NCBI RefSeq assembly: GCF_010725485.1
Contig: NZ_AP022598.1
Location: forward strand, 496,001 to 560,000
Length of the DNA stretch: 64,000 bases
From: Mycolicibacterium parafortuitum
GTDB lineage: Bacteria > Actinomycetota > Actinomycetes > Mycobacteriales > Mycobacteriaceae
Reading direction: 5' to 3'
The position numbers were made by a program, and so were the translations under genes. The notes under the pieces are model-generated. The model made no database searches. It saw only the letters and a program-made list of their open reading frames with translations, and had not been told where the DNA came from. This document shows, one piece after another, positions 9,116 through 35,323 of the stretch (position 1 is its first letter; each line of letters starts with the position of its first letter).

Positions 9116-11641
9116 GTGGCAGCACAGCTTGATCCCACCGACGCCCTCGCCCGCATCCTCATCGAGCACGGCCCACTGCACGAGGACGACATCGCGCAAC
9201 GGCTGCGCGAGACGGGCATCCGGAATGCGGAGGATGAGCTTCCGCGCTTGTTGAACGAGATCACCTGCGCTGCAGTGCCTTTAGCTGATGACCGCTGGGC
9301 GTGGCTGCCCGCCCTGCTGGCCGGCCGGCTATTCACGCACCGGGTCGACGCCCAGGAGATGACCCACGACATCCTGCTCGTCACCCCGGACCTCGACCCG
9401 ATCACCCACCTCTGCGAGTTCGAGGAGTACGCGCAGCTGGCCGACGGCACCCCCGTCAGCGTCGCGTTACCGGCGTTCGATGACGGGGTGCTCGACGAGC
9501 GGGACGTCCCGCTGGACATGGTCGACGACGGCGGCGCGCTGGTCCTGCCGCCGGGCACGTTGCGCGGCCTCGGCCTCGCAGCAGGCGACCTGGTCGGTCT
9601 GAGGTTGACGCCCGCGGGACTCACCCTGTCGAAGGTGACGGCGGATCCGGCGCCGCAGGTCGGTGCCGCACTGGCGGCCACCCTGGCCCCCGACGAGCCG
9701 ACGCCGTTCGATTCCGCGGTGTGGAGCGCGTGTTCGGCGGATCCGGCGCTGTTCACCGAGCCCGTGCCGCCGCTGTCGGAGATCGCCGACGCCCACAACC
9801 TGGTGCGTCGCCTCGACCTGCTCGCACCTGCGGGCTTCGACTACGACCGGTGGCGCTTCGAGCTGGACTGCGAGGTGATGCGCAGGCGGTACGACATCGA
9901 CGAGGATGCCGCACGCGCCCTACGCACGCTGGTCACGGTCTACGAGCAGATGTCGCAGCTGATCACGACGTCTCTCTCTGGCGAAGAAGAGGCGCCCGAC
10001 GAGGACGTGCCGGCGCCAACCACCGAGGGCTACCGGGAGCTGGTCGCCGAGTTCGGAGCCGAGCTCGCCGATCCGCGCCTGGCAGAGCTGCTGGTAGCCG
10101 AAACCCTGGGCCGCAACCCCGATGGCGCCGCGGCACTGGGGTTGTTCGCCGAGACGCTGGAGCCGCAGGTGCCGCGCCGCGCCCGGGTCGCGTTCCGCTG
10201 GCTGCGCGCGGTGGCGCTGGAGCGCATCGGCGACATCGAGGCGGCCGAACGGGAGCTGCTGGCCGCCGAAACGATGGACACCGACTGGCCGTTGCCGCTG
10301 TACGACCTGGCCCGGATCGCGTCCGACCGCGGTGACGTCGAGCGCGGGTTGGCGTTGCTCCATCGGGCGGGTGCCGCGCCCGACGATCCGATGCTCTTGT
10401 TGCTGCGCAGCCATCGGGCCGAGGCGCGCCCCGATGTGGGCCGCAACGAGCCGTGCTGGTGCGGGTCGGGCCGCAAGTACAAGAAGTGCCATCTCGGCAA
10501 GGAGCAGTTGTCGCTGCTGGAGCGGGTGGGGTGGCTGTACGCGAAGGCCGCGCAGCATGCGGTGGCGGGCGAGTGGCGCGGCCTGATCGCCGAGCTGAGC
10601 TACGAACGCAGCCGGCATGACGATTCGCTCGACGAGATGCTCGACCCGCTGATCGTCGATGCTGCGCTGTGTGAAGGCGAAGCATTCGAGGACTTCCTGG
10701 CTGTTCGCGGCCCGCTGCTGCCCGATGACGAGCGGTCGCTGGCAGAGCAGTGGCTGCTGATCGAACGCTCGCTGTTCGAGGTCGAGGCGGTGAGTCCCGG
10801 TCACGGGCTCACGGTGCGCGACGTCCGCACCGGCGACGTGCACGAGGTGCGGGAGCGCACCGCCAGCCGGCAGCTCAAGGCAGGACATCTGATCTGTACC
10901 CGGGTGTTACCGGTCGGCGACGGCACCGCGCAGCTCTTCGGCGGAGTGGAACCCGTTGCGCTGCATCAGCGCAGCGCGCTGATCGAGCTTCTCGACGAGG
11001 GACCTGACCCCGTGGAGATCGTCGCGTTCCTGAGCGCCCGGTTCGCTCCGCCGACGCTGACCAACACCGAGGGTGATCCGCTGATGGTCTGTGAAGCGGT
11101 TGTGCGCGTCAGTGATTCGGCACGTATCGAAGCCGCGCTCGACGACACCTATGACCGGGTCGAGGACGCGGAGCTGCCGCAGTGGTTCGAGCATGTCACT
11201 ACCGACGGCATGGAACGCATCCGCGCGACGATGGTGCTCGACGGGGACACGCTGCGGGTCGAGACCAACAGTGAGGAACGGATGGACCGGGTGCTGGAAA
11301 CCCTGGAGCGGCTCGACCCGGGAATGCGCGTCGTCGATGAGACTCGCACACCGATGGACGACCCGCGGAGAATGGCCGCGCGGATGCCTGCAACCGCTCA
11401 GGGCGCGGTGGACCCGGACGACCCGCAGGTGGTGGCCCTGCTCGACAAGATGATCCTCGATTACGAGGAGAAGTGGCTCGACGAGTCGATTCCGGCGCTC
11501 GACGGGCACACCCCACGCCAGGCCGCCGATGACCCGACCCGCCGGCCTGATCTGATCCGGCTACTCGACTCCTTCCCCTCCGACACAGGCCGCCACGCGA
11601 TGAATGCGGATCGACTCAGGGCGGCGCTGGGGCTGGAGTAA
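9116..11641 (+). CDS. SEC-C motif protein with helical middle region
   Basis: 841 residues from GTG 9116, chosen because protein-like sequence begins there and a TANNNT hexamer lies 7 bases upstream; the frame is open further upstream. Residues 447-459 carry a SEC-C zinc motif (CWCGSGRKYKKCH), the metal site first known from the SecA tail. The N-terminal 70 residues look like a small winged-helix module (ILIEHGPLHEDDIAQRLRE). The middle is mostly alpha-helical, perhaps with TPR-like repeats before the zinc motif. SEC-C motifs occur in many unrelated proteins, so no enzyme function follows. It is transcribed toward the vapBC pair. Confidence 0.75.
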   Translation: MAAQLDPTDALARILIEHGPLHEDDIAQRLRETGIRNAEDELPRLLNEITCAAVPLADDRWAWLPALLAGRLFTHRVDAQEMTHDILLVTPDLDPITHLCEFEEYAQLADGTPVSVALPAFDDGVLDERDVPLDMVDDGGALVLPPGTLRGLGLAAGDLVGLRLTPAGLTLSKVTADPAPQVGAALAATLAPDEPTPFDSAVWSACSADPALFTEPVPPLSEIADAHNLVRRLDLLAPAGFDYDRWRFELDCEVMRRRYDIDEDAARALRTLVTVYEQMSQLITTSLSGEEEAPDEDVPAPTTEGYRELVAEFGAELADPRLAELLVAETLGRNPDGAAALGLFAETLEPQVPRRARVAFRWLRAVALERIGDIEAAERELLAAETMDTDWPLPLYDLARIASDRGDVERGLALLHRAGAAPDDPMLLLLRSHRAEARPDVGRNEPCWCGSGRKYKKCHLGKEQLSLLERVGWLYAKAAQHAVAGEWRGLIAELSYERSRHDDSLDEMLDPLIVDAALCEGEAFEDFLAVRGPLLPDDERSLAEQWLLIERSLFEVEAVSPGHGLTVRDVRTGDVHEVRERTASRQLKAGHLICTRVLPVGDGTAQLFGGVEPVALHQRSALIELLDEGPDPVEIVAFLSARFAPPTLTNTEGDPLMVCEAVVRVSDSARIEAALDDTYDRVEDAELPQWFEHVTTDGMERIRATMVLDGDTLRVETNSEERMDRVLETLERLDPGMRVVDETRTPMDDPRRMAARMPATAQGAVDPDDPQVVALLDKMILDYEEKWLDESIPALDGHTPRQAADDPTRRPDLIRLLDSFPSDTGRHAMNADRLRAALGLE

Positions 11642-17997: not shown

Positions 17998-20892
17998 GTG
18001 CTGCCTGGCTTCGCTCACCTGTCGCCGGGAAGCAAAGTCGAGGGATTGGCGTTCGATGCGGTCGTCGAGATCGTCGACGTCACCGCCGCCGGCTCCGGCG
18101 CCTTCGTCCGCTACCGGGATGAGTTCGGCATCGAAGACTCGCGGCTTCTCTCCGCCGACGAGTTGGCGAAAGTCCTGCCGGTGGGCGGACAGGGGCCGAC
18201 CCTCGCCGCCGATCCCGACCAGTTCTGGCTCGCGATCGAAGCCCTGCGGTTGCGGCACGCAGCCGTGCTCAACCCACTACTCGCCGTGTCGTCGTCCAAC
18301 GTCGAGGCTCTGCCGCATCAAGTGCAGGCCGTCTACGACTGCATGCTCACCGGGCACCCCAAACGATTTTTGCTCGCCGACGACCCCGGTGCGGGAAAGA
18401 CCATCATGGCGGGCCTGTTCATCAAAGAGGCGCTCGCGCGGGGCTGGATCCGGCGGTGCCTCATCGTGGTACCCGGAAGCCTCGTTGAGCAGTGGCAGAA
18501 CGAATTGCGAGAGAAGTTCGCGCTGCACTTCGCGGTCTTCGAGAATTCGCTGCTGGGCGATTCGCCGGACACGTCACTGCAGGACTTCCCGTTTCTCATT
18601 GCTCGCCTCGACCAGTTCAGCCGCAGTCCCGACTTGACGGCCCACGCCGTCGATGGAGAGTACGACCTGGCCATCTTTGACGAGGCGCACAAACTGTCCG
18701 TCAGCTCCTGGGGCAGCACGGTCACCAAGACCAAGCGGTTCAAGCTCGCCGAAGCGATTCGAGACGCAGTCCCGAGCACGTTATTGATGACGGCGACTCC
18801 GCATAACGGCAAGGACGCCGACTACCGGGAGTTCCTCACGCTCCTGGGGTCCGCGGATCAGCCCATCGTCGAGGATCCCGCCGCCAACGGACTGATGCGC
18901 CGTCTCGTCAAAGAGCAACTCGTCCACTTGGACGGCACGCCCCTGTTTCCCGAACGCCGCGCGAGCACCGTGCCCTACCGGCTCAGTCCGATCGAGGGCG
19001 AGCTCTACGAGGCGGTCAGCGAATACGTGCGCGAGGAGATGAACAAGGTCGCCGATGACGACACCAGGCGCAGTGTGGGTTTCGCGCTTGTGGTCCTGCA
19101 GCGCCGACTGGCGTCCTCCCCGCAGGCGATCCTGCGCTCGCTCACCCGTCGACGCGACCGGCTGCGCGCGCAGGCGGACCAGGCGCGGGCAACCGAGGGG
19201 AAGATCGCCGTGGCTCTCGCGGCGACACTCGGGGGGGGCATGGACGATCCCGACGAGATGAGCAGCGTGCGGGCGGAGACCTATCAAGACGAGGTGGTCA
19301 GCGTCGCCACAAACGCGCGAACGGTCGCCGAACTCGAGGCGGAGATCCTGGTGCTCGATCGGCTCGTCGCCAAGGCCGAGGCCGTCTATTCGGCCCGTGC
19401 CGACGCGAAGTGGGCGGCGCTCGCCGAGCTGCTCACGAGTGAGGCGATGTTCGAGGCGGACGGTCAGCGACGCAAGATCATCATCTTCTCGGAGAATCGC
19501 GACACCCTGGATTACCTTGAGGACCGTCTGGTCGAGCTGCTGGGCAGGGCCGTCGATGTCCAGGTGATTCACGGCGCAATGTCCTGGAGCGATCGCCGCC
19601 GTGCGCAGGCGAACTTCATCGCCGAACCTAGCAGCTCGGTACTCATTGCGACCGATGCTGCGGGTGAGGGCGTCAACCTCCAGGTCGCTCACCTGATGGT
19701 CAACTACGACGTGCCATGGAATCCGAATCGCCTCGAACAGCGATTCGGCCGGATCCATCGCATCGGCCAACGACACACCTGCCATCTGTGGAATCTGGTT
19801 GCTGCCGACACCCGAGAGGGTGATGTCTTTCAGACCCTGCTCGAGAAGGTCGAGGTGCAGCGGGAGGCGCTCGGCGACCAGGTGTTCGACGTGCTCGGCG
19901 AGGTGCTGACCGAGATCAGCCTCAGTCAGTTGCTGCGGCGAGCGGTGGGCGGAGAGGCCCGCCACGGCGAGATCGAATCCGAGCTCGATTCGGTGTCGGG
20001 ACGCCTGGAATCGGCCGTCGAGAAGCGGGCGGCATCGGTGAGCACGCTGACGCCCGAGGAACTCGCCGTGCTGCGTCGCGACATGGAGATCGCAAAGGCG
20101 ATGAGTTTTCAACCGGATGTGGCCCGCGACTTCATGCTGCGGGCCGCGCCGCTATTTCACGTCGACATCGCGACGCGGGGTGATGCGTGGCAGGTCGGGT
20201 ATGTGCCGACGCGGCTGCGAGACGAGTTCGGGTCGTCGCTGACGGCCCGCTACGACAGGGTGGCGTTCGCGCACTCCGACGATCAGGTTTTCGCAGCCGA
20301 CCCGCCGGAATTGATGGCGCCGGGGCACCCTCTGGTGTCGGCGCTCGTTGCGGCTGCCAGCGACGAGTTCGGTGCGTCGCTTCGTCAAGGGATTGTGCTG
20401 TCCGACAACCGATCTAGCGATGACTATGTCTTGCTGACCGTCGTCACCACCGCCGAGGGGAATCGATCGACAGTCACCACCTACGCGGTGCCGACCGGCG
20501 GTGACCGACACGAGGTGAGCCCGGGCCTATACACCGACCTGGGGATGGGGGCGACGCCCGAACCACACGAGATCGCCGCGGCCGAGGCGGCGGTGGCCGC
20601 GCTCAGCGAGGACCCGGACCACGACATCGCCGCTGTCGCCTATGTGCGGGGAACGGCAAGTCCGGCGACCGCGAGCGCGTGGCGCACCGCGCGGGAACAG
20701 CTGCGCGACGACTTGAACGCGCGGGGGTTGGATCCGGTGGCGGCGCTACCGGGGCAGGGCTGGGATTTCACCACGGGTCATGACGAGACTACTTTCTGGT
20801 CGGCTGCACCGGCGGGCGAGATAGAGCGGAGACGCGCCGAGAGGCACGTGGCCGCGAATATCGGGGGCAAGTACCGCGTGGTGCCGGGCTAG
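17998..20892 (+). CDS. SNF2-family helicase, DrmD-like
   Basis: 964 residues from a GTG at 17998, with GGAG upstream. The N-terminal LSPGSKVEGL and the module after it resemble those of SNF2 helicases annotated as DISARM DrmD. Walker A DPGAGKT lies at 129-135, DEAH at 228-231, the LLMTATPHNGK motif follows, and the C-terminal RecA lobe contains NYDVPWNPNRLEQRFGRIHR. It should be a double-stranded-DNA translocase. DrmB, DrmC and a methylase, the other DISARM parts, are not beside it. The nearest partners are the divergent Mre11-like and Rad50-like genes and the downstream EEP nuclease. Confidence 0.85.
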   Translation: MLPGFAHLSPGSKVEGLAFDAVVEIVDVTAAGSGAFVRYRDEFGIEDSRLLSADELAKVLPVGGQGPTLAADPDQFWLAIEALRLRHAAVLNPLLAVSSSNVEALPHQVQAVYDCMLTGHPKRFLLADDPGAGKTIMAGLFIKEALARGWIRRCLIVVPGSLVEQWQNELREKFALHFAVFENSLLGDSPDTSLQDFPFLIARLDQFSRSPDLTAHAVDGEYDLAIFDEAHKLSVSSWGSTVTKTKRFKLAEAIRDAVPSTLLMTATPHNGKDADYREFLTLLGSADQPIVEDPAANGLMRRLVKEQLVHLDGTPLFPERRASTVPYRLSPIEGELYEAVSEYVREEMNKVADDDTRRSVGFALVVLQRRLASSPQAILRSLTRRRDRLRAQADQARATEGKIAVALAATLGGGMDDPDEMSSVRAETYQDEVVSVATNARTVAELEAEILVLDRLVAKAEAVYSARADAKWAALAELLTSEAMFEADGQRRKIIIFSENRDTLDYLEDRLVELLGRAVDVQVIHGAMSWSDRRRAQANFIAEPSSSVLIATDAAGEGVNLQVAHLMVNYDVPWNPNRLEQRFGRIHRIGQRHTCHLWNLVAADTREGDVFQTLLEKVEVQREALGDQVFDVLGEVLTEISLSQLLRRAVGGEARHGEIESELDSVSGRLESAVEKRAASVSTLTPEELAVLRRDMEIAKAMSFQPDVARDFMLRAAPLFHVDIATRGDAWQVGYVPTRLRDEFGSSLTARYDRVAFAHSDDQVFAADPPELMAPGHPLVSALVAAASDEFGASLRQGIVLSDNRSSDDYVLLTVVTTAEGNRSTVTTYAVPTGGDRHEVSPGLYTDLGMGATPEPHEIAAAEAAVAALSEDPDHDIAAVAYVRGTASPATASAWRTAREQLRDDLNARGLDPVAALPGQGWDFTTGHDETTFWSAAPAGEIERRRAERHVAANIGGKYRVVPG

Positions 20893-24347: not shown

Positions 24348-24505
24348 GCAGATCCGACCACAATGATCCCCAACGGCAGCAGCGTGGGGACGCCGATGGC
24401 CAGGACCCGTTTCGATGCCTCAGCAAGACGCCCACCGATGCCGTGGGCGATACCGATACCACCAAACAGCGCCAACGCCTCAGCCGGCTCGCTCACCTGA
24501 TTCAT
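24344..24505 (-). CDS. 53-residue single-pass membrane peptide
   Basis: The ATG at 24505 overlaps the upstream stop by one base (TGATG) and its own stop overlaps the next ATG (ATGA), so it is held tightly between two genes. It has a Gly-rich stretch (LFGGIGIAHGIGG), a short charged turn (RLAEASKR) and one hydrophobic helix (VLAIGVPTLLPLGIIVVGS) at the C-terminus. It probably inserts in the inner membrane. Tiny membrane proteins of this kind can be toxins or defence effectors, but this is only context. Confidence 0.6.
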   Translation of the reverse strand: MNQVSEPAEALALFGGIGIAHGIGGRLAEASKRVLAIGVPTLLPLGIIVVGSA

Positions 24506-25215
24506 CACGCTTCCGACAGTTCGAACTGCACGCGATACAGCAACCAATCGGTCTTCACCCCGAACTTCTGTGCTTGAATCTGCACCAATTCCGCCAGATC
24601 GTCGTCGGGCTGACCCGTCACGATCAGCAACCTCGCACCAGGACGTCCGTCAGATGCCGCTTGCGCCTTGAGCGCACGCATGTACTTCGCTGCCTGCCCA
24701 ACTAGACGGTCATCCCCTTGCTCGGCCTTCAACTCGAACCCGACTAGCTCATTCGTCTTGGTATCGACTCCGAGGAGATCGATTGTCGCTCCAGTAGCGA
24801 TTCGCGTCTCCCGGCTGAGAATTCGCAGGTTGTTCCGCTTCGCATACGTTAGAGAGTCCTTATTCAGCCAAAGAAATCTGGATAGGTCTCTCTCTTCTTT
24901 GAAGAGTTCGCGGGTCGCACGAAATCTCTTGTTGAGCCTATTCAGATCAAAGAAGTAAATGCGTGTTTCCGGTGTGTTTGCAGGATCGGTCAGCTCGGGA
25001 GAAAAACCAACCTTCTTGTCCCGCAACCGTGCACCGAGTTCCTCCAGGAAACGGTCCGACGACCGCTCATAACCGGCCTCGCGCACCAGCACTCTCAGCT
25101 TGCTCTTCGGCATATGCCGAAGCGATCGAGAGGTCTCCGGAACTGCATCAATCCGCCCACGAGTCTTTTCAACCAGGCGCACGAGCCGATCTTCTCTGGT
25201 CAGTCGTGTCGCCAT
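24505..25215 (-). CDS. NucS/EndoMS-like PD-(D/E)XK nuclease
   Basis: 236 residues. Residues about 130-210 match the nuclease domain of NucS/EndoMS: FLWLNKDSL, then LSRETRIATGATIDLLGVD (catalytic Asp), FELKAEQGDD (Glu and Lys) and GQAAKYMRAL (Gln). NucS is the actinobacterial mismatch endonuclease. The N-terminal 100 residues here are different, so this is a distant relative with another substrate rather than the housekeeping gene. It heads a four-gene overlapping operon. GC content is low (the 60 bases at 24841-24900 are 42% GC), which supports recent transfer. Confidence 0.75.
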   Translation of the reverse strand: MATRLTREDRLVRLVEKTRGRIDAVPETSRSLRHMPKSKLRVLVREAGYERSSDRFLEELGARLRDKKVGFSPELTDPANTPETRIYFFDLNRLNKRFRATRELFKEERDLSRFLWLNKDSLTYAKRNNLRILSRETRIATGATIDLLGVDTKTNELVGFELKAEQGDDRLVGQAAKYMRALKAQAASDGRPGARLLIVTGQPDDDLAELVQIQAQKFGVKTDWLLYRVQFELSEA

Positions 25216-25492: not shown

Positions 25493-25828
25493 TCACAGCA
25501 CCAGCTCGGCCACCACTCCACACAATTGCTCGACCTCGGCGACAGAAGGTTGCATCTCGTACGCATGCAGATGGCAGGCATTGCTCAATCGGTTCCAAGC
25601 GAGAGCAGCCGCATCGGCAACCTCCGGTTCGTCCAATGCGCGCAGGATGAGCAGCTTGCTTCGCGTGGTGGCGCCCGACGCTGCGGCCCCTAATGCGCCG
25701 CAGCGTTGTTCGATGATCTCCTCGAGTGCTTGACGCGCTAGGAACGCCGCCATCCGCGGTGACAGCCCGCCGGCCGTAGGTGTCGTGAGGATCTGCTGTG
25801 CCCGGCCGAGCATCTCAATGGCGCTCAT
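25493..25828 (-). CDS. Small HEPN-like protein
   Basis: 111 residues, almost all helical. Its ATG overlaps the ATPase stop (ATGA). Near the C-terminus lies RLSNACH (Arg80 to His86), an R-x5-H motif of the R-x4-6-H class that forms the RNase active site of HEPN domains. The preceding helices (AFLARQALEEII, RSKLLILRAL) fit the four-helix HEPN bundle. Known HEPN proteins cut tRNA or other RNA, often controlled by a partner ATPase. The same heptad pattern occurs at the end of the upstream ATPase. RNase activity is an inference. Confidence 0.6.
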   Translation of the reverse strand: MSAIEMLGRAQQILTTPTAGGLSPRMAAFLARQALEEIIEQRCGALGAAASGATTRSKLLILRALDEPEVADAAALAWNRLSNACHLHAYEMQPSVAEVEQLCGVVAELVL

Positions 25829-28236
25829 CGAAGCGCTAGCAGGGTCTCGACCGTACGTTCGAGGTCGCGCGCCTCATCCTTGGAGACGCCCCTGGCCGCA
25901 CCGTGCACGGCGTTGCACAAACGAAGGGTGTTGCGACGCTCACGTTTCGCATCGAGCCATCCAGTAAGGTCGGCACCGGGATCACCGTGGATAGCAAGCG
26001 CAAGGCGTGACGACGTCTTCTTGGCCGATGCCCATGCTTGCTCAGCATCAATACGCGGCCTGCCGGCAAGCGACTGCTTGGCGTAGAACGCCTGCTTCGC
26101 AGCGGCTTCCACGGCCATCCGGAACAGACCGGGTACTACGCGGGCCCTGATCTCGTCAGGCAGGCCATCGTCCTTGACGACCGCGAACACGTCACTGACG
26201 GTCCGACGTGCGGGATTGACATTGTCGCGCGCCGTCACCTTCGACCCGGTCTCCCGCACGACTTCGACCATCCTGGCGTCAACTCCAGTCTCACGGATCA
26301 CGGACGCCAGACGGTCGTCATGCGAGAACACGATCACCTGATGAGTCTTGGCCACCTCCCCGAGGACTTGGACGAAGCCGTCGATCTTGGCGGGATCCAT
26401 TGCCTGGATCGGATCGTCGAGGACGATGAACCGGAACGGACTGTTGGCCGACGTGGCTCGTGGAAGGAACAGAGCCAAGGCGAGCGCGTGCAGTTCGCCC
26501 TGACTCATCACCGGCAGCGCTTTGGTGGGCTCACCGTCGACTGAGCCACTGAGCACGGCCTTGCGATGCGTGGCGGTTCCCTGGAGCGTGATCTCACCAA
26601 GATCGACGTTGCTCTCCTGCCGGAGCAACCTCCAGATCTTACGCGCCTGCGCGGCAATCGATTCCAGCCGTTGGTTGCGGAAGGGCTTGGATCTGTCGGT
26701 CACCCATCTCTTGGCGGCCGTTATGGCATTGAGCGTGCCGTCAAATTTCCGGGCCTCCTGCTCGACGTTCACCCAGGCGGCGAGTCGAGCGGCGAGCGGC
26801 GCCCACTCGTCCTCCCGGGCGTGCAGCGCCTGTTCGGCCTCGGCTCTTGCAGCCTCTGCGGCACCGATGACGACGATCAGCGTGGCTTCGATATGCGCGG
26901 CGAGTTCTGTGTCGCCATCCGGTCTGGCCCGCGCGGCGTCGACGGCAGCGTTGTAGTCGGCCATCCTCGGCAGGTCGACGCCGGGAACGCTGGCGAGCAT
27001 GCCGGCCAAGGTGGTGAGTCGTACGGCCGCTGAGCGCGCCTGCGCGAGTTCGCCCTGTGCCGATCGGTACTCACGCAGTGATTCCTCGGTCTCGGCGATG
27101 GCGGTACGGGTGCGAGTGGCCCACTCTCCGTCGAGTCTGCCCTCTCCGCACAACGGGCATTCAAGGTCTCCGGCGTGTTCGTGAAGTTGAAGTGCGGCCG
27201 ATAGGACGTCGATGCGCTGTGCAGCATTGTCGGCAAGAGTGTGAGCGGCGTTGTCGACGGTTTCCCTGGCGGACCGAAGACGCGTCGCCGTCGTTTCGAC
27301 GTCATCGAGTGACGGGACCTCGATTTGGGTAAGTGCGCGAAGCGCGGCTACCACCCGTTGCCCTTCGTCGTCGGATCCCGTTGCGAGGGCGAGCACCTCG
27401 TCGATGGGTGCACCGCCGCGCTTGCGCAACAGGGTGACCGCGCGTTGGGCGCGATCGTCATCCGAACCTGACAGTGCCTTGACTAGCTCCTTGCGTTCCG
27501 CGTCGGCGCGGTCACGCGCGGTCTTAGTCAATTTGATTTGCGCGCCAAGCCATTTCTCAGCATCTGTGAGGACTTCCAGGCCCAATAGCTTGGACAGTGC
27601 GTCGTAGAGGGCCGACGGTCCACCGTCGAACAGTCTGCCGAGTTCTTCATAGGACAGAATTGGACGCCAGAGTTCAAGTGGCCTCGACCAGCCGAGGTCG
27701 GCAGTGCCAGGCAGTCGTTGATCAGATCCGGTCTGAGTCCATGAGGTGCGGTCGGTGAGTTCGGCGCCGGCCTTCCACTCCATCCCCACGGTGAAGGTTC
27801 CGACGCCCTCGGCGGTGAATCCGACCCGAATCGCGCAGGGCTCGGGGTGGTGCAGGTTACGCCACGCCTCTTCCCAGAGCGCGGCCTTGTTGTGCCAGCG
27901 GTAGCTGGTTCCGGTCAGAGCGAGTTCGAGTGCTTCGGCGAAGCTGGACTTGCCCGATCCGTTGCGACCGCTGACCACCATGAGTCCGGGTGTGGGGTGC
28001 AGGTCGAGCCGCGCCTGGCGGCCGATACCCCGGAAGCCGACGACGGAGATCGTTGACAGGTAGGTCGGCGCGGGTGAGGCCTGGGTTCCATCGGTGTTGC
28101 CCTCGACTTCGGCAAGCGCCTCAAGCACCCAGTTCCTGGCGTCCGCGTCGATGTCCTGGTCGTCCGCGAGCATACGCAGTACGACATCGTGGACAGACTG
28201 TTCCTGGCCGGTCGCCGTGATCTCAGAGTTCCCCAT
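25825..28236 (-). CDS. AAA ATPase with zinc hook and C-terminal HEPN-like motif
   Basis: 803 residues from the ATG at 28236 (a TTG five codons earlier is possible). Walker A GRNGSGKS lies at about 90-97, a CPLC zinc hook at 360-363 within coiled coil, then an ABC-type signature (MSQGELHALAL), LDDPIQAMD and FSHDDR. The C-terminal 120 residues go beyond a Rad50 fold and end with RLCNAVH (Arg772 to His778), again R-x5-H. This is the plan of RloC- and PrrC-type ATPases that carry a C-terminal RNase, although their exact motif is not identical. It overlaps the small HEPN-like gene by four bases. Probable role: an ATPase that senses damage or phage DNA and releases RNase activity. Confidence 0.75.
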   Translation of the reverse strand: MGNSEITATGQEQSVHDVVLRMLADDQDIDADARNWVLEALAEVEGNTDGTQASPAPTYLSTISVVGFRGIGRQARLDLHPTPGLMVVSGRNGSGKSSFAEALELALTGTSYRWHNKAALWEEAWRNLHHPEPCAIRVGFTAEGVGTFTVGMEWKAGAELTDRTSWTQTGSDQRLPGTADLGWSRPLELWRPILSYEELGRLFDGGPSALYDALSKLLGLEVLTDAEKWLGAQIKLTKTARDRADAERKELVKALSGSDDDRAQRAVTLLRKRGGAPIDEVLALATGSDDEGQRVVAALRALTQIEVPSLDDVETTATRLRSARETVDNAAHTLADNAAQRIDVLSAALQLHEHAGDLECPLCGEGRLDGEWATRTRTAIAETEESLREYRSAQGELAQARSAAVRLTTLAGMLASVPGVDLPRMADYNAAVDAARARPDGDTELAAHIEATLIVVIGAAEAARAEAEQALHAREDEWAPLAARLAAWVNVEQEARKFDGTLNAITAAKRWVTDRSKPFRNQRLESIAAQARKIWRLLRQESNVDLGEITLQGTATHRKAVLSGSVDGEPTKALPVMSQGELHALALALFLPRATSANSPFRFIVLDDPIQAMDPAKIDGFVQVLGEVAKTHQVIVFSHDDRLASVIRETGVDARMVEVVRETGSKVTARDNVNPARRTVSDVFAVVKDDGLPDEIRARVVPGLFRMAVEAAAKQAFYAKQSLAGRPRIDAEQAWASAKKTSSRLALAIHGDPGADLTGWLDAKRERRNTLRLCNAVHGAARGVSKDEARDLERTVETLLALR

Positions 28237-28249: not shown

Positions 28250-28323
28250 AACGACAGTGCGACATGTGTCGGCGATACTGATGTGCGGCTTCGCAGCGAT
28301 GCAGCAAAGAACCATCGTCGGGC

Positions 28324-29055
28324 TCAGGGTCTCTCCGCAGAGCCCCTTGCCATGGAGCCTTTCGACGTCCACGCGAGGATGTCGAGTAGGCGCACGTGCG
28401 TCAGATCTCCGGGTGCACTTGTGGCTTCGTCGAGGATCTTGAACGCTCCCTGCTGAGAGCGGATGTCGTGTCCGATGGCGAGAGTAATTGCCACCATGTA
28501 GTCCGCCCACGACCGTTTTTTGACGCGAGGAACCGGGCCATCCTCGCCTACGTAGCAGGCTCTAACCCACTTGTCATGCAAGACCAGGCTCTGCGGTCGC
28601 TTGCGATGCAGCACCTTTGACAGCGTGGTGGCGTTGACATTCCGCGGCTTGCCCTGTGGGGCGTCGAGCACCGAATACAGAGGTTTCACCATTCCCTCGA
28701 CACGAAGCGGATCTTCGATCTCTGAGAGGGCATAGCCAAGGTCATCGTTCGCCAAGCCAGCCTCTAACTCGGGGCGGATGCGCTGCAAATCATAGAAGGA
28801 TCTGATCTTGATCGGCACATTCAATAGCCCGGGCGCCAGGAGGTCCGCATCAGTGAGCTGGCGCGGGTCGTTTCTGTCCCGTTCATACGAGTCGTAGGCC
28901 GGGTACGCGTAAGGGTTGACAGCACAGGAGTTTCCCTCGTCGGTGTACTGCGCCACCCACTGCTGCGCGCGCTCAAGCGGGATAGTGACACAACCGATCC
29001 GTACCTCGTCAAGCTCTGCAGGCTCCACGTTCCTAAGAGTATTGGAGCTGCCCAT
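28324..29055 (-). CDS. DUF6308-like protein of unknown function
   Basis: 243 residues. The sequence includes NPYAYPAYDSYER, then LTDADLLAPGLLNV and SFYDLQRIRP. This is the pattern of the actinobacterial family I know as DUF6308; no biochemical activity is known to me. No membrane segment or signal peptide. It lies 87 bases upstream of the AAA ATPase gene and 55 bases downstream of the SF2 helicase gene, all on the minus strand, so it could belong to either unit. Confidence in the family name is moderate. Confidence 0.6.
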   Translation of the reverse strand: MGSSNTLRNVEPAELDEVRIGCVTIPLERAQQWVAQYTDEGNSCAVNPYAYPAYDSYERDRNDPRQLTDADLLAPGLLNVPIKIRSFYDLQRIRPELEAGLANDDLGYALSEIEDPLRVEGMVKPLYSVLDAPQGKPRNVNATTLSKVLHRKRPQSLVLHDKWVRACYVGEDGPVPRVKKRSWADYMVAITLAIGHDIRSQQGAFKILDEATSAPGDLTHVRLLDILAWTSKGSMARGSAERP

Positions 29056-29110: not shown

Positions 29111-32100
29111 TCAATGTCGACGCGGGGGTCTCAGGTCCAGCTGGGCAACCTGCCCCTCAGCCACACCCCGCTGCTTCAACAGTTCCATCATGTCTTCCTG
29201 CCTAGGCTGACCCAGCATCATGCGATAAAGGGTCAACGAGTCGCGGAGCCTCTCGTACTGGGCGTCCTCGCGACTGAGCGGGAAGTGCACGATCATCCGC
29301 TCGACGCGCGCAGCGCCCGGGTAGATCCACCACGGCGAGAACTCGCCAAGTTCCGGACGGTCGACCGCGGCGTCGAACGTGTTCTGCCACGGGTGTTCAC
29401 CAGGCCTTACAGCCGCGAGCGCGGCCCTGCCGTGCGCTACCGCGACGTTCTTCCGAACCGCGTGTCCTCCGAATCGGTTGACACGACCCTCGCGTTGTTC
29501 AAAGTCAACGGGATTCGACGGCAAGTTCCAATGCACGATGGAATGACTCCACCAGTGAAAGTCGATCCCCTCCTGGCCGACACTCGTCGATGCAAGGATA
29601 AATGGCCAAAAGGGGCTGTTGAACGCATTGCGGACTTCCGGAGCTCGGACACTCTCCGCGTCTCCCACGGCAGTGCCGTATCTCAACGCGAACCGCACCG
29701 TAATCGGAATCTTCGAGAACTTCTCATCGGCGGCTCGCGCGTTGTACCGCGACGTGCGCAGTGTCAAGGCCTCGACCGCGCGGTCCGCAATCTGGCTGAG
29801 CGCGTTAGCGTCGACGCCCGAGCCGGCGAGTTCAAGCTTGAGTTGGAAGCAGTACTCGTCGAGCACCGACTGAAGGTTGCCGTCGGCGCAATACTGCAAC
29901 ACCGATCTCCAGTACGGCTGATGGTGCCCGTAAATCTTGTCCAGGAGGAACTGCACGTCCATGCGGTTGAAGAGGGACCGGATGCCGTTGGCCAGCCGGG
30001 CGGCCGCACGCCAAAGGCTTGTCCGAAGCTCTTGGTCTACCTCGTCGCAGATTCGGGCGAGCGCTCGATACGCAATGTTTCCAGGGCTGTGGATCGCCAG
30101 AACGCCGAGTTCCTCTTGCCATCTCGGCGTCCCTGCCTGTGTCAGAGCCAGCCGCGCGTGCTCCTTTAGAGCATCGCCCGAGTCGTTCTCTTCGTTCTTG
30201 CTGCCGCCACCGCGCCCGGCTAGCCAGAATGCGGCGGCGTCTGCGCGTCGGTGCACACCCTCAGGCCAGCTGCCTGGCCAGGAGAAGAACGCTTCCCAAA
30301 CCGAGTCCGGCTGCGCCTGCTCCGACGCCCCGGCCAGGGAGCGGATGCGGTCATCCGCCCGCCTCCTCGCGTCGTCGGCCAACATCAACTCAGTGTCTGA
30401 ATCCAAGAGCGTGAGCGGGTCACCGACTTCGGCCAGCGTCGGGTGTGGCCAGAACAGCATCAGAGTGGACATACTCGCCGCCCGACCGTCCCTGGTCACG
30501 TAGTCGAGCCGTGATGACACCGCCCTCCTGGCGTCCGCCGTGTTCTCGCTCAACGCAGATCCCTCGATCATCCTCCGCTCTGCCTCGTAACTCAGCAGAC
30601 TCGCCACCGACGTCGGAACGCTTGACCACGCCGAGAAGATCAGGCGCTTCGTGACGGACCCATCCGAGAACGGCGAATACACCTCGCCCGGGGACAAGTA
30701 CGGCATGGACGGTGGAATCCACAGGAGCTTCCACCAGCCCTTCTCGATCGTTTCCCCGGCGAACGCCCTTAGGCGCGCATTGGCGTAGTCGAGCTGCTCG
30801 TAGTTCCTGACTGCCTGTGGCTGAATAGCCCGGAGCTGGCCGATAGTCGACGTCAATTCTGGTGTCGCAACACCGCTTTCTATTTGTTCGCGGGCTCTCT
30901 CCCCTGGCCGATATCCCTCCATGAAGCTGGCGAAGTACGGGATGGACTTCCAGTAGTCCAAGCTCACCGGCGAGTCGATGGCTCGGGCAAAAGCCTGTAG
31001 CGCCGAATAACTACGCAGATCCTCCGGTGTCGGGACGTCACTCACGACACGGCGGACAAGCAGATCTCGGCCCTCCTCGAGGCGTGGGCGTTCGGACCGG
31101 CTCATGAAGGGAAGCAGGCTCTTCCGCAGTTCGGCGGCCTCGACGGCTCCGTCCGAACCTGCGATGACGGCCTGCCGATAGTTTCGAAACCCGTTGCGGA
31201 TTCGTTCCAGCGCCTCGCCGTCGCCCCCGGCCAAGAACTCCAACGTTGTCATGAAGTCGCGGTAGTGATCGTCCTCATTGTCGCCGGCGACGGTCGTGTA
31301 CGGCTTGTACGGTGTCGCCGAGAGCAAGAGAACCTTCGCGGCGGGATAGTTGAACAGGTGGTGGGCGAGTTCGCTAGCTGCACTCCCGCTCTTCGGATCG
31401 ATCAGATGCCGGAATCGTTGGAACTCATCGAGGATCACGAGGTCCGGTTCGAGGGACTCAACGCCCGCAGCGGCGAGGACTCCACGCAGGCGAGCGGTCA
31501 GGTGATTCACCTCGCGCCGCAGTTCCGGCGGACAGACGTCGAGACCGCGCAGCTGCTCGCGGGCGAGTTCGAACTGCTCCTGTAAACCGCTTTCGTGGAT
31601 CGCAGCGGTGAACGCCCCCTGGATCACTGGGTCTGGGCCGGATCCGAGGGCGGTTCTCATATTCGCGATGCCAGCTTGAAATCGATCTACCGAGGCCACG
31701 CCACCCTGGAAGAACAGCGCTGAGGCTCGCTCTGCCGTCGCGTCGACGATTGCCATACCGTTAAGGAGGACGTGCAGCAGTTGCCGCTCCTCCTGGGATC
31801 CGGTCTGCCACCCCATCTCGAAAGAGGTTCCCGGAGTGAAGGATACGAGATTGACCTTCTTTCTCAGGAGTGACGCATCCGAGGTAAAACGCCTGGTCTC
31901 TAGCGCAAGCATCGTGAGCCTGCTGGTGACTCCGAGGTGTGGGTCTCCCGTGACATTCAGCCGACGAAGGTTCTGCTTCGCCAGATCGGTGCTCGAGCAG
32001 ATGTAGACGACGTCGATCCGGTTGATGTGGTCTGCGTTCTGCAATTCAGCGATGGTGGATGCGATGACCCCGCGTGCGATGACACTCTTTCCGAGACCCG

Positions 32101-32230
32101 TCTCGTCGGCCACGAGGAAGCGCCCACTCGAATCTGGGGCTCGATGGAGTCGGTCGACGATGTGTTCCACCGCATCGCGTTGGAAGCCCTTGAGCCCGCC
32201 GAGTATTTCGTTGACATCAGGCATGTTCAT
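29111..32230 (-). CDS. SF2 (SNF2-like) helicase of the DUF6361/PLD operon
   Basis: 1039 residues. The ATG at 32230 overlaps the stop of the PLD gene (ATGA), so this start is preferred over one 16 codons upstream. Walker A ETGLGKS lies at about 43-49, an unusual DEFQ box at about 268-271, LLSATPYKPY follows, and the second RecA lobe has STSVGQEGID and EQREGRVNRFG. The 400 residues between the lobes are long and unlike those of standard SNF2 proteins. It probably moves on double-stranded DNA or remodels it for the PLD-fold protein. Confidence 0.82.
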   Translation of the reverse strand: MNMPDVNEILGGLKGFQRDAVEHIVDRLHRAPDSSGRFLVADETGLGKSVIARGVIASTIAELQNADHINRIDVVYICSSTDLAKQNLRRLNVTGDPHLGVTSRLTMLALETRRFTSDASLLRKKVNLVSFTPGTSFEMGWQTGSQEERQLLHVLLNGMAIVDATAERASALFFQGGVASVDRFQAGIANMRTALGSGPDPVIQGAFTAAIHESGLQEQFELAREQLRGLDVCPPELRREVNHLTARLRGVLAAAGVESLEPDLVILDEFQRFRHLIDPKSGSAASELAHHLFNYPAAKVLLLSATPYKPYTTVAGDNEDDHYRDFMTTLEFLAGGDGEALERIRNGFRNYRQAVIAGSDGAVEAAELRKSLLPFMSRSERPRLEEGRDLLVRRVVSDVPTPEDLRSYSALQAFARAIDSPVSLDYWKSIPYFASFMEGYRPGERAREQIESGVATPELTSTIGQLRAIQPQAVRNYEQLDYANARLRAFAGETIEKGWWKLLWIPPSMPYLSPGEVYSPFSDGSVTKRLIFSAWSSVPTSVASLLSYEAERRMIEGSALSENTADARRAVSSRLDYVTRDGRAASMSTLMLFWPHPTLAEVGDPLTLLDSDTELMLADDARRRADDRIRSLAGASEQAQPDSVWEAFFSWPGSWPEGVHRRADAAAFWLAGRGGGSKNEENDSGDALKEHARLALTQAGTPRWQEELGVLAIHSPGNIAYRALARICDEVDQELRTSLWRAAARLANGIRSLFNRMDVQFLLDKIYGHHQPYWRSVLQYCADGNLQSVLDEYCFQLKLELAGSGVDANALSQIADRAVEALTLRTSRYNARAADEKFSKIPITVRFALRYGTAVGDAESVRAPEVRNAFNSPFWPFILASTSVGQEGIDFHWWSHSIVHWNLPSNPVDFEQREGRVNRFGGHAVRKNVAVAHGRAALAAVRPGEHPWQNTFDAAVDRPELGEFSPWWIYPGAARVERMIVHFPLSREDAQYERLRDSLTLYRMMLGQPRQEDMMELLKQRGVAEGQVAQLDLRPPRRH

Positions 32231-34104
32231 AGGTCGGCTCGAATTCCAGCGGAGTAGGCCGCCCAGACAGATTCCCATAGCTCATCGAAGCCGGCGGGCA
32301 GCACCGACGGCACGCCTGCGGGACGACGATCGTCCGCTGCCTTCACGTGTTCGATGATTCGACGAACGTCGGCCAGGCCGCCGTGTTCGACGCCGATCGC
32401 CCGGACAAGGGTTTCGAAGAGCCCGCTGCCGTCCTCTGCCCAACCGGAGCCCAGAGCGCCCGATGGGTCGAAATGGAATACACCGTCGCGGGTTTCGAGT
32501 GCGAGCAGCAGCGCTAGCAGCTTCATGAATGCCGAGCGGTCAGCAAGTTGCCGGGCGATGACGGCGTCCTTGCGACCGGGGATGTCACCCTCAAGCGTCG
32601 CTGCGACGACTGTTGACCTGGTGACGTCGCGTCCGTCCGTGACTCGAATGACAAGGAAGGGCGTGATGTCGGTGAGCGCTAACCGGTCGAAGACGAGGGG
32701 CTGTCCCGGCACGTCGCCGGCGTTGGCTGGCCTCGTCAGAAGGGTAACTCGCGCACTTATCTCCTCCGGGACGGTAACCTGTCCTTCAGCAGAAAGCCCA
32801 ATGCGGTAGTTAGTTTCGAGGGCGTCGGTGTCCACTCCGCTATCGGAGAAGCTGGACGTATGCTCTCCCGTTTCTACGTGGGCGAAGTATCGCCGAGCCG
32901 CCAGCGCGCGGAGCACCTGCTCAAGAGCGTGATCTGCCATTTCATCTGGCGGAACCTCCGCGTTGCCCTCTGGTTCGAAGGGAATCGTCAGCGCACGCAG
33001 ACGTGAGTCCTCCCCGAGAATGGCAGCCACACCGACTTTCGGCTGGGGACCTTCGAACTCCACCAGCATCTCCACGTTGCCGCCGAATGCGGCTTTAGTT
33101 GTATTCGCGGATCCCACAAACAGATGCGATCCAGTGCGTCGATCAAGGACGTAAGCTTTCGCATGAAGTCCCCCAAGAGGTTCCAACTGCGGTGTCGTTG
33201 TCGCATTGACTCCAGCTGGCTCCAGCGCTTCGCCTCCGATCACAACCTCGTCGTCGTTGGCGGCGTCGTCGAGGATCAGGGCATCAATGCGCTCAAGAGT
33301 ACTTCCATCCAATCGTTCGAGTTGCTCCCGACGGGCGAGAATGACGATGGACTCCGATCTGGGCGGAATGACCCTGCAGATGCCCTCATCGCTAAGGAAC
33401 GGCGAGAGGATCCCGTGGCGTATCCCATCAAAAAGCTCGTGCAGGGGTTCCGGCGTGACGCCCGGGATACCGTAGGGGTGAAACCGCAGGCGTCGGACGT
33501 CACTCGGTCGCTCCCATTCCACCCGGGACACGGCGTCCGCGAGCTCCGAAATTCGCGCCACGCGATGGGCGGGCAACGGTTGAATGGACATCGCCGGCAG
33601 TGCGCGCACGAACGCGGCAAGAGGCATACTCTGCTCCACCGGCTCGTCGGCCGCAGTGCCATCCAGCCGCACGATGAGGTCCCAGCTGCGGTCGTTGGTC
33701 AGATTGCGACTGGCGCAAAGCATCCGATAGCTGCGAGCATCGCCATCTGCATACTCAAGCACCCAGACTTTCGGATGGAAGAGCATGCCTGGACGGGGTG
33801 CCGCGGCAGGGTGAATCATCGGTTCGAGCAGAGCGAACAAGTCGGACGGCACCCGCGGCTCGAAGATCTGGCCAGCTTGGGCGAAGAGGTCGATCTTGTC
33901 GGCTGCACGTCGCACGGCGTCAAGTATTGCGATCGGGTCGCGGCTCTCACGCACGCGGTGCGCGGCGAAGGCTAGCGGCACTGACAGGGCGGTAGTCAAG
34001 TCAAGCGTGAATGTAGTTGCCACCGCGTGGGCGAGTTGGAATCCACTCGGCGGACGCAGTTGTTCGGTGAGCGCGGCGCGACCGTCTGGCTCAAGCATCC
34101 GCAC
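32227..34104 (-). CDS. Phospholipase D-fold (HKD) protein
   Basis: 625 residues from a GTG at 34104 (ATG two codons on is possible). Two HKD-type motifs are present: HPKVWVLEY at His110/Lys112 followed by CASRNLTNDRSWD, and LHAKAYVLDR at His314/Lys316 followed by VGSANTT. Two such motifs form one PLD active site. In this setting the fold most likely acts as a nuclease rather than on lipid. It overlaps the DUF6361 gene upstream by 14 bases and the helicase gene by 4. DISARM also uses a PLD protein (DrmC), but that one is smaller. Confidence 0.82.
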   Translation of the reverse strand: MRMLEPDGRAALTEQLRPPSGFQLAHAVATTFTLDLTTALSVPLAFAAHRVRESRDPIAILDAVRRAADKIDLFAQAGQIFEPRVPSDLFALLEPMIHPAAAPRPGMLFHPKVWVLEYADGDARSYRMLCASRNLTNDRSWDLIVRLDGTAADEPVEQSMPLAAFVRALPAMSIQPLPAHRVARISELADAVSRVEWERPSDVRRLRFHPYGIPGVTPEPLHELFDGIRHGILSPFLSDEGICRVIPPRSESIVILARREQLERLDGSTLERIDALILDDAANDDEVVIGGEALEPAGVNATTTPQLEPLGGLHAKAYVLDRRTGSHLFVGSANTTKAAFGGNVEMLVEFEGPQPKVGVAAILGEDSRLRALTIPFEPEGNAEVPPDEMADHALEQVLRALAARRYFAHVETGEHTSSFSDSGVDTDALETNYRIGLSAEGQVTVPEEISARVTLLTRPANAGDVPGQPLVFDRLALTDITPFLVIRVTDGRDVTRSTVVAATLEGDIPGRKDAVIARQLADRSAFMKLLALLLALETRDGVFHFDPSGALGSGWAEDGSGLFETLVRAIGVEHGGLADVRRIIEHVKAADDRRPAGVPSVLPAGFDELWESVWAAYSAGIRADL

Positions 34105-35323
34105 GCTCGAGACCGTCGTGGATATCGTGAATCAGCGGGCGCATTTGAGTCCATCGGTAGACGAGTGGGCGGCTTCCCGATGATCCGAGCCATGCCTGCA
34201 GGAGTCGCTTGTTTGTCAATCTGGCCTGGGTTCGCTTGTGCTCGCGCTCGCGGCGAGTGATGAACGATCTCACCGCGTCGTTGTCGGCGAGTTCGGGGAG
34301 GTGCGCCGTGCCGAGCAGATCAAGCCAATCGTCGATGAAACGGCGGGACCGGCTGTTGACGTTCGGATTCCGCTCGAGCACACGTCGCCAAAACTCACCG
34401 CGATCCCACGTGGCGATGTCGTCCGCCAGGCCGGGTCGGTCGGCCCATCGGCCGAGTCGTTCGCGGTAGTCATCGACCGGGTTCTCCACGCGGTCAAACC
34501 CCTCGCGCTCATACGCCTCGGCCAACATCAGGTTGTACATCAACGATGCGCTGTTCATGAGGATGGAGAAGCGCCTCGCGTCGTCGAGCACCTTCGCGCG
34601 TTCTCCGTCGGCCGCCATCAGGACTGAGTCCTGCCACGGAACCGCGCTCTCAGCGTCGGGGCGGTGCAGCAACGCGTACTCCAGCATCGTGTCCGGCGAG
34701 CTTGCGAGCATCCGGTCGCGAAGCCATGCCGCCTCGATCGATGGCATCTTGAATCCTTCAGGCACTTCCATCGGAAACCCCTCAGGCACCGGGGGCAACG
34801 TCGCATGGAACCCTCCGTAGTGCCACGCTGCTGCCTCGTCCTGGTACTCGACAGTGGGGGGACGGCGAGTGTGCACGCGGTCCATCTCGGCGGCGATGGT
34901 GTCTTCCCTGCTCAGAGTGGCATCGTTGAGGATGCCGTGGGTGCGCATACCTCCCCAGTACAGAGCGGACGGCAAGTTCTTCACTGCCATCCCAACGCTC
35001 CCGCCGATCACACCGTCCTTTTCGCCGGCCTCGAGGAGACCGCGGATGAGGCGCCGCTCATTCTGGTCTGCGAGTGCAGTCGCTCTGTCGATGTCTTTGC
35101 GCGCCTCTGCTGCGGCTCGATAGCACCATGGGATGAAGAGGAAGTAGCGCGCTCGGGTGAACAGCGTTGAGGTGCCCGGCCATAGCGCGTCGCTGAGCGC
35201 GTCACGGACCTGTCCTATGCCGAGTTCGTCGCGGCTCTCCCGCTCGCTGAACAAGTTGACGATCTCGCGCATGCGGCGTTGGTCTTCGCTCGATGCGTCG
35301 AGCCATGCAATAAGGGCGGTCAT
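34091..35323 (-). CDS. DUF6361 family protein
   Basis: 410 residues. The start MTALIAWLDASSEDQRRM, the RARYFLFIPW segment and MRTHGILND are features I associate with DUF6361, a family I know only by name. No catalytic motif is visible to me. It is the first gene of a three-gene operon with overlapping ends (DUF6361, PLD, SF2 helicase). This repeated partnership suggests the protein is a subunit of one complex. A role in recognising the target DNA is only a guess. Confidence 0.75.
   Translation of the reverse strand: MTALIAWLDASSEDQRRMREIVNLFSERESRDELGIGQVRDALSDALWPGTSTLFTRARYFLFIPWCYRAAAEARKDIDRATALADQNERRLIRGLLEAGEKDGVIGGSVGMAVKNLPSALYWGGMRTHGILNDATLSREDTIAAEMDRVHTRRPPTVEYQDEAAAWHYGGFHATLPPVPEGFPMEVPEGFKMPSIEAAWLRDRMLASSPDTMLEYALLHRPDAESAVPWQDSVLMAADGERAKVLDDARRFSILMNSASLMYNLMLAEAYEREGFDRVENPVDDYRERLGRWADRPGLADDIATWDRGEFWRRVLERNPNVNSRSRRFIDDWLDLLGTAHLPELADNDAVRSFITRREREHKRTQARLTNKRLLQAWLGSSGSRPLVYRWTQMRPLIHDIHDGLERADA

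Follow-up and report, generated by a model that had tools for sequence, protein, structure and literature searches.

A 64,000-nucleotide stretch of the Mycolicibacterium parafortuitum genome (the window; bases 496001-560000 of a 6.04 Mb genome in a single contig) carries two overlapping genes on the reverse strand, one encoding a large ATPase and the other a small protein. We found that these genes form a conserved two-gene module, a probable ATPase-gated RNase switch of phage defence, a reading to which we give even chances. The open reading frames, their 4-base overlap and the heptapeptides RLCNAVH (ATPase) and RLSNACH (small protein) were exactly as described in a sequence-only reading of this DNA, which had also proposed that the R-x5-H pattern common to the heptapeptides marks a composite RNase site. 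The heptapeptides proved a poor guide to the conserved residues of the two families. Both the small protein and the C-terminal tail of the ATPase instead have in common an Arg-x3-Glu in one helix and a His ending a later helix.

The small gene and the ATPase gene travel as a unit. At least 543 ATPase relatives were found by tblastn at E 1e-3, and the best 80 were examined. The small gene adjoined the ATPase in 78 of these 80 loci, in one of them (L066) as a partial match only; the two loci that lacked it had a truncated ATPase (L130) or reached the contig end (L134). Searches with the small protein gave 33 loci, 31 of them with an adjoining ATPase or ATPase piece, so the pair that the sequence-only reading had proposed to look for in other genomes does recur there. 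The exceptions were a weak match (L054) and a locus with no ATPase nearby (L063). The orphan small-protein relative in the latter (9371-9898, 45 bits) is divergent from a gene resembling the UvrD-type helicase of the window (E 6e-60). Among 246 genomes of the phylum, 11 had both genes, 2 the small gene only, 1 the ATPase only and 232 neither (Fisher P 2e-16), which puts prevalence at 13/246 for the small gene and 12/246 for the ATPase (at E 1e-60). One of the two small-only genomes (G134) has an ATPase fragment at a contig edge. The overlap is also a habit of the whole family, a start codon being possible in that register in 70 of the 78 related pairs examined. Named close relatives of the two proteins belong to Mycobacterium and Mycolicibacterium, and hosts of the 80 loci include Mycobacterium, Rhodococcus, Gordonia, Williamsia, Nocardioides, Micromonospora, Pseudonocardia, Kitasatospora and one metagenome-assembled genome labelled Acidobacteria. 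A scan of viral contigs gave four distant ATPases and no small gene.

This distribution bears on the idea that the genes are a housekeeping DNA-repair pair, annotated as RecF or SbcC-like and found in islands by chance. The Rad50-like head of the ATPase and the source names 'recombinase RecF' and 'Nuclease SbcCD subunit C' would fit such a role, but the pair is patchy even within the genus (24/118 genomes for the small gene, one via a weak match) as well as across the phylum, and restriction and defence genes are among its neighbours. ATPase copies are also interrupted. In two mycobacterial genomes the ATPase is split into two open reading frames beside a full-length match to the small gene (L046, 9764-11092; L116, 8926-10876), which points to an accessory module in decay. 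We consider a housekeeping role very unlikely.

To follow the shared motif, close relatives (120 small proteins, and the 118 of 120 ATPases longer than 740 amino acids) and wider families were aligned. The wider ATPase alignment has 81 rows (the window protein with 16 of the 120 listed relatives and 64 of the 77 from loci) and that of the small protein 85 (the window protein with 13 of the 120 listed relatives and 71 of the 78 from loci); smaller alignments had 32 (A3), 29 (A4) and 27 (A5) rows. L054 was excluded from alignments and counts, L055 from the tail alignment, and ATPase pieces under 500-740 amino acids (L046, L057, L116 and L130 among them) from the ATPase counts. The close ATPases kept R772, N775 and H778 in 67, 114 and 117 cases, and the close small proteins R80, N83 and H86 in 117, 90 and 120. 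In the wider families both His residues were invariant (H778 81/81, H86 85/85), whereas the Arg was lost (R772 18/81, R80 32/85), so that only half of the conservation foreseen for the Arg and His pair held. Any R-x4-6-H ending at the conserved His was likewise found in 18/81 ATPases and 32/85 small proteins. Removal of rows above 80% identity left the picture unchanged (Arg772 14/74, Arg80 23/73, His 74/74 and 73/73).

An arbitrary His within ATPase residues 1-680 is preceded by Arg at a distance of 5-7 residues in 251 of 1040 cases (24%), which places the R-x5-H of the ATPase at background level. Of 101 distinct pairs, 3, that of the window among them, had the pattern R[LIVM]xNAxH in both members (4/105 when four duplicate genomes were not merged; merging was used only for this count and the redundancy check). 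With the loss of the Arg, the background rate and this rarity of double occurrence, R-x5-H was ruled out as a shared site, and the claim that the two genes carry the same conserved motif has to be given up: the match is a local coincidence. The R-x4-6-H of a canonical-site HEPN RNase is thus not conserved in the small-protein family, though the window protein has the motif, nor in the ATPase tail, where 18/81 compares with a background of 24%. A different pattern, R83-x4-H88-x-[YF]90, was seen in 24/85 small-protein relatives (the window protein has Asn83); it resembles the HepT toxin motif, R-x4-H-x-Y.

The residues that are conserved lie mostly elsewhere. In the small protein (n=85) they are R25 (84), R32 (85), E36 (85), W78 (85), H86 (85), H88 (85) and E98 (84), and in the ATPase tail (n=81) D682 (80), R706 (81), E710 (81), H778 (81) and E732 (75, otherwise Asp). 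Judging by these alignments, the helix with R25...R32-x3-E36 is likely to be the true conserved polar site of the small protein.

Structure prediction and fold search placed the small protein in the HEPN superfamily, with a helical bundle (predicted helices 3-15, 23-45, 55-65, 68-85 and 96-110) and Parep1/8 (2q00) as second-best match; the HEPN domain suspected there earlier was thereby borne out at the level of a predicted structure. When the small protein was compared by hhalign with ten DUF4145 sequences (strand picked by an IRxxGNxxxH-type pattern; an eleventh, partial match omitted), a local probability of 75% was obtained over 22 columns, with R25, R32 and E36 in register. Scanned against Pfam and PADLOC, small proteins and tails gave no more than chance-level matches. 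The Pfam cut-off for DUF4145 (PF13643) was not reached (1/32 small proteins at E 0.12; 2/29 tails, best E 0.02), and PADLOC had no family for the small protein of the window, one of its 32 relatives weakly matching HEC-01A. When both families were searched by sequence against the PDB, neither the small protein nor the ATPase tail had a significant match.

The ATPase has a Rad50/SMC-like head by fold search of its predicted structure, and its best PADLOC matches are LmuB (5.1e-24) and then mad3 (4.3e-22). The CPLC motif sits in a loop between predicted helices 337-355 and 370-409. Such a head and an invariant CxxC hook motif agree with the zinc-hook ATPase proposed earlier, the hook being expected to bind zinc. 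Residues are numbered from the ATG, as in Arg772; an upstream TTG at 28251 would give 808 amino acids. Fold matches of the whole ATPase mostly span residues 57-679 and hence have little bearing on the tail. In the full-length model the tail forms helices 675-688, 694-723, 728-737 with 741-750, a short 758-763, 765-778 and 786-801, in an order like that of the small-protein model. Alignments of the two families gave an hhalign probability of 3.4% at first and 11% when deepened. The local score was 22.1 with the tail cut at residue 670 and 17.3 at 690, against a maximum of 19.0 in 60 column shuffles and at most 16.9 for six other ATPase windows. R32/E36 fell on R706/E710, and in global mode H86 fell on H778 (P 6e-4). 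From helix order and invariant residues it is plausible that the tail is HEPN-like; of the HEPN domain claimed there, the helix order and the invariant Arg-x3-Glu and His stand, and the catalytic R-x5-H does not.

The state of the tail also matters for a toxin-antitoxin arrangement, in which the small HEPN protein would be the toxin, the ATPase its guard and the tail a docking HEPN mimic that prevents homodimerisation. Against it, the tail retains an invariant Arg, Glu and His of its own. The ATPase gene comes first and the putative toxin gene second, and the ATPase is much larger than usual antitoxins. We regard this arrangement as unlikely.

We favour instead the gated RNase switch. In the resting state the ATPase would keep the HEPN parts inactive. 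It would dimerise and sense the state of DNA, that is foreign or processed ends or an attack on a neighbouring restriction system, and on such a trigger its nucleotide cycle would free or align the HEPN parts. RNA, most likely tRNA, would then be cut and growth arrested. Catalysis would depend on the Arg-x3-Glu of one helix and the His ending another (R32, E36 and H86 in the small protein, with H88 beside; R706, E710 and H778 in the ATPase tail) rather than on R-x5-H, and analogy with known HEPN proteins points to these invariant residues as the likely site. Since the same set occurs in both proteins, a cis-trans HEPN pair would be a natural arrangement, and the two HEPN-like parts, encoded one-to-one, likely pair with each other. 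We infer the RNase activity, its target, the gating, the pairing and the binding of zinc. A more specific version is tentative, and we would put it well short of even: a widespread, hitherto undescribed antiphage system of two genes in Actinomycetota, in which a zinc-hook Rad50-like ATPase with a HEPN in cis and a second HEPN in trans forms a heterodimeric RNase with an Arg-x3-Glu and His site, opened on attack on DNA or on a neighbouring restriction system.

Precedents exist for an unusual site. The usual HEPN site is R-x4-6-H, while the Parep1/8 family (structure 2q00) keeps the His, lacks the Arg and possibly uses other conserved basic residues (PMC3710099, excerpt). The HEPN protein of retron-Kva2 has no canonical motif; its distant H64 and R122 come together in the dimer interface, and defence was lost when either was mutated (PMC13405049, preprint, excerpt). 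Other ATPase systems use HEPN domains as back-up effectors (PMC12839542 and PMC10853773, excerpts), which agrees in kind with the ATPase-HEPN reading.

Several observations weigh against an RNase switch. The canonical catalytic Arg is unconserved across both families, and 30/85 small proteins lack Arg at both position 80 and position 83. A HEPN domain without the motif can be a binder of RNA with no catalytic role (PMC3710099, excerpt), and the R-x3-E may have a structural role. The match of the small protein to DUF4145 is weak in global hhalign mode (probability 6.8%), and that of the tail is negligible. The 29 tail members gave only chance-level matches in Pfam and PADLOC, and the similarity of tail and small protein is weak and dependent on the tail cut point. 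In a covariation analysis of small protein and ATPase over 105 paired rows, the tail took 45% of the 20 strongest pairs and 46% of the 50 strongest, with 16.5% expected; it was about as enriched with most of 12 control ATPase segments (10-60% and 24-50%), so there was no specific contact signal. The RNase activity is itself something that we infer, and the defence-neighbour counts given below stand without a matched control set.

The chief rival takes up the first of these points. On that view neither HEPN-like part is catalytic. The small protein would serve a DNA-processing machine of Rad50/RecF type, either structurally or by binding nucleic acid, much as the accessory subunits of Lamassu, Dnd/Pbe and ABC-3C ATPases do, and any killing nuclease would be encoded by a neighbouring gene. 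The unconserved Arg, the LmuB and mad3 matches and the loci with a helicase or helicase-nuclease next to the pair (SngC in L105 and L138, mREase_IV in L084 and L123) would suit it, as would the 17/75 loci in which a same-strand gene follows the small gene by no more than 50 bases. But in the other 58/75 the next gene is on the opposite strand or more than 50 bases away, and no effector gene is constant, the largest cluster of alike large neighbours being of mREase_IV type with 9 loci. Moreover, both domains have kept Arg, Glu and His without exception across deep divergence, which would exceed the needs of a scaffold. We think a non-catalytic subunit somewhat improbable.

Upstream neighbours were scanned at 61 loci with a simple gene picker based on G+C content at third codon positions (genes of at least 100 amino acids, either strand, up to ~1.5 kb away). 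PADLOC matches were mREase_IV (7), DrmD (2) and SngC (2), and in L105 and L138 a SngC-type gene abuts the ATPase. ZacA was found in L102, and eight scanned neighbours included a type I methyltransferase, a GajB-like helicase, PDC-S37 and, in L131, a gene with no PADLOC match. As no single partner dominates the neighbourhoods, the pair looks autonomous yet at home in defence islands.

ZacA, ZacB and ZacC (PADLOC E 8.9e-134, 1.3e-161 and 0) and a DUF6308 gene lie upstream of the pair in the window, on the same strand (Table 1). Membership of the pair in Zac was considered and rejected: Zac genes were within ~9 kb in only 4/113 other loci (L040, L075, L102 and L123; weak helicase-only matches in L069, L099 and L128 were left uncounted), and Zac is therefore a neighbour rather than a component. 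No Zac model was among the 25 PADLOC families shown, of 67, for the ATPase, and literature naming two of ZacA, ZacB and ZacC together amounted to one unrelated paper among the matches listed. In L040 ZacABC abuts the ATPase with no DUF6308 gene between them, and in L123 a DUF6308 gene is upstream of the pair and ZacA/ZacB downstream. A relative of the NucS-like neighbour (E 1e-79) lies ~7 kb from the pair in L051. Members of the surrounding island include a DruE-like protein of 2168 amino acids, a type IIG restriction-modification enzyme, a DrmD-like helicase and a type IV restriction enzyme.

Table 1. Features of the gene pair and its surroundings, in window coordinates.
Feature	Position	Strand	Remarks
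Small gene	25493..25828	-	111 amino acids; predicted HEPN-fold protein, DUF4145-like in one helix
H88 (H-x-[YF]), second invariant His, small protein	25565..25567	-	85/85
RLSNACH, R80-H86, small protein	25571..25591	-	H86 85/85, R80 32/85
R25...R32-x3-E36, second-helix signature, small protein	25721..25756	-	R25 84/85, R32 and E36 85/85; in register with DUF4145 sequences
ATGA overlap of 4 bases, ATPase/small gene	25825..25828	-	sequence
ATPase gene	25825..28236	-	803 amino acids from ATG; Rad50/SMC-type head
ATPase C-terminal helical domain, residues 675-803	25828..26214	-	HEPN-like by helix order and invariant residues (plausible)
RLCNAVH, R772-H778, ATPase	25903..25923	-	H778 81/81, R772 18/81
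R706-x3-E710, ATPase tail	26107..26121	-	each 81/81
CPLC zinc-hook-like motif, C360/C363	27148..27159	-	both Cys 81/81
Walker A GRNGSGKS, ATPase residues 90-97	27946..27969	-	invariant or nearly so, 81 rows
NucS-like nuclease gene, downstream of pair	24505-25215	-	weak Pfam match
DUF6308 gene, between ZacC and ATPase	28324-29055	-	same strand as pair
ZacA, ZacB, ZacC homologues	29111-35323	-	PADLOC
Dense defence island, first part	17998-20892	+	both parts together: HmaA-like and UvrD-type helicases, DruE-like, type IIG, DrmD-like, PDC-S37-like, type IV
Dense defence island, second part	37260-62859	-	

RloC carries a zinc hook, a term that occurs in PMC2610378. The anticodon nucleases RloC and PrrC are Rad50-like ATPases that gate a C-terminal HEPN (PMC3710099, excerpt), and the present pair resembles them in its SbcC/Rad50-like ABC head, C-terminal helical domain, hook motif and defence setting, often beside restriction genes. 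It differs in having a second HEPN-fold protein in trans and no conserved R-x4-6-H; in particular, the catalytic motif expected of a C-terminal HEPN in the same chain is reduced to Arg772 in 18/81. Two weak PADLOC matches among 29 tail members were to neither RloC nor PrrC, the coverage of these by PADLOC being unchecked. DUF4145-type HEPN proteins have a similar helix signature, in which R25, R32 and E36 line up, and a later helix of theirs likewise has a conserved His, but the small protein is without the IRxxGNxxxH-type Arg found in the ten DUF4145 sequences and without a Pfam match above cut-off. Parep1/8 is archaeal, and the excerpt of PMC3710099 names no Rad50-like ATPase partner for it. 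The HEPN of retron type IX (Kva2) is alike in forming its site from a distant Arg and His across the dimer without a canonical motif, but it is a homodimer held by a reverse-transcriptase and multicopy single-stranded DNA complex, not by an ATPase (PMC13405049, preprint, excerpt). Lamassu (LmuB/LmuC) and other ABC conflict systems likewise combine an SMC/Rad50-like ATPase with a small subunit, and LmuB is the top PADLOC match; the small subunit here, however, is HEPN by prediction, and in the window neither LmuA nor LmuC was among the PADLOC matches for the small protein, DUF6308, ZacA, ZacB, ZacC or the NucS-like neighbour. Finally, in the type 1 BREX-related DUF499-HEPN (Hma) system a HEPN forms one protein with a defence ATPase and acts as back-up effector, but that ATPase is of AAA+ STAND type, the HEPN is N-terminal and the excerpt describes no second HEPN gene (PMC12839542). 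The arrangement of a cis and a trans HEPN would be unusual. Among the literature matches listed, the pair was unnamed in titles or abstract starts, and a prior description is possible.

If our reading is true, a broadly distributed ATPase-HEPN system, with the ATPase relatives counted above, would be added to those known, and its small partner is nameless in the family libraries searched. In it, two separate HEPN parts would tie DNA sensing of the Rad50 kind to the cutting of RNA, and the HEPN active site would have been rebuilt without R-x4-6-H, from residues elsewhere, a case open to experiment. The pair also illustrates that a tidy motif in neighbouring genes can be a local coincidence, with the real shared signature elsewhere.
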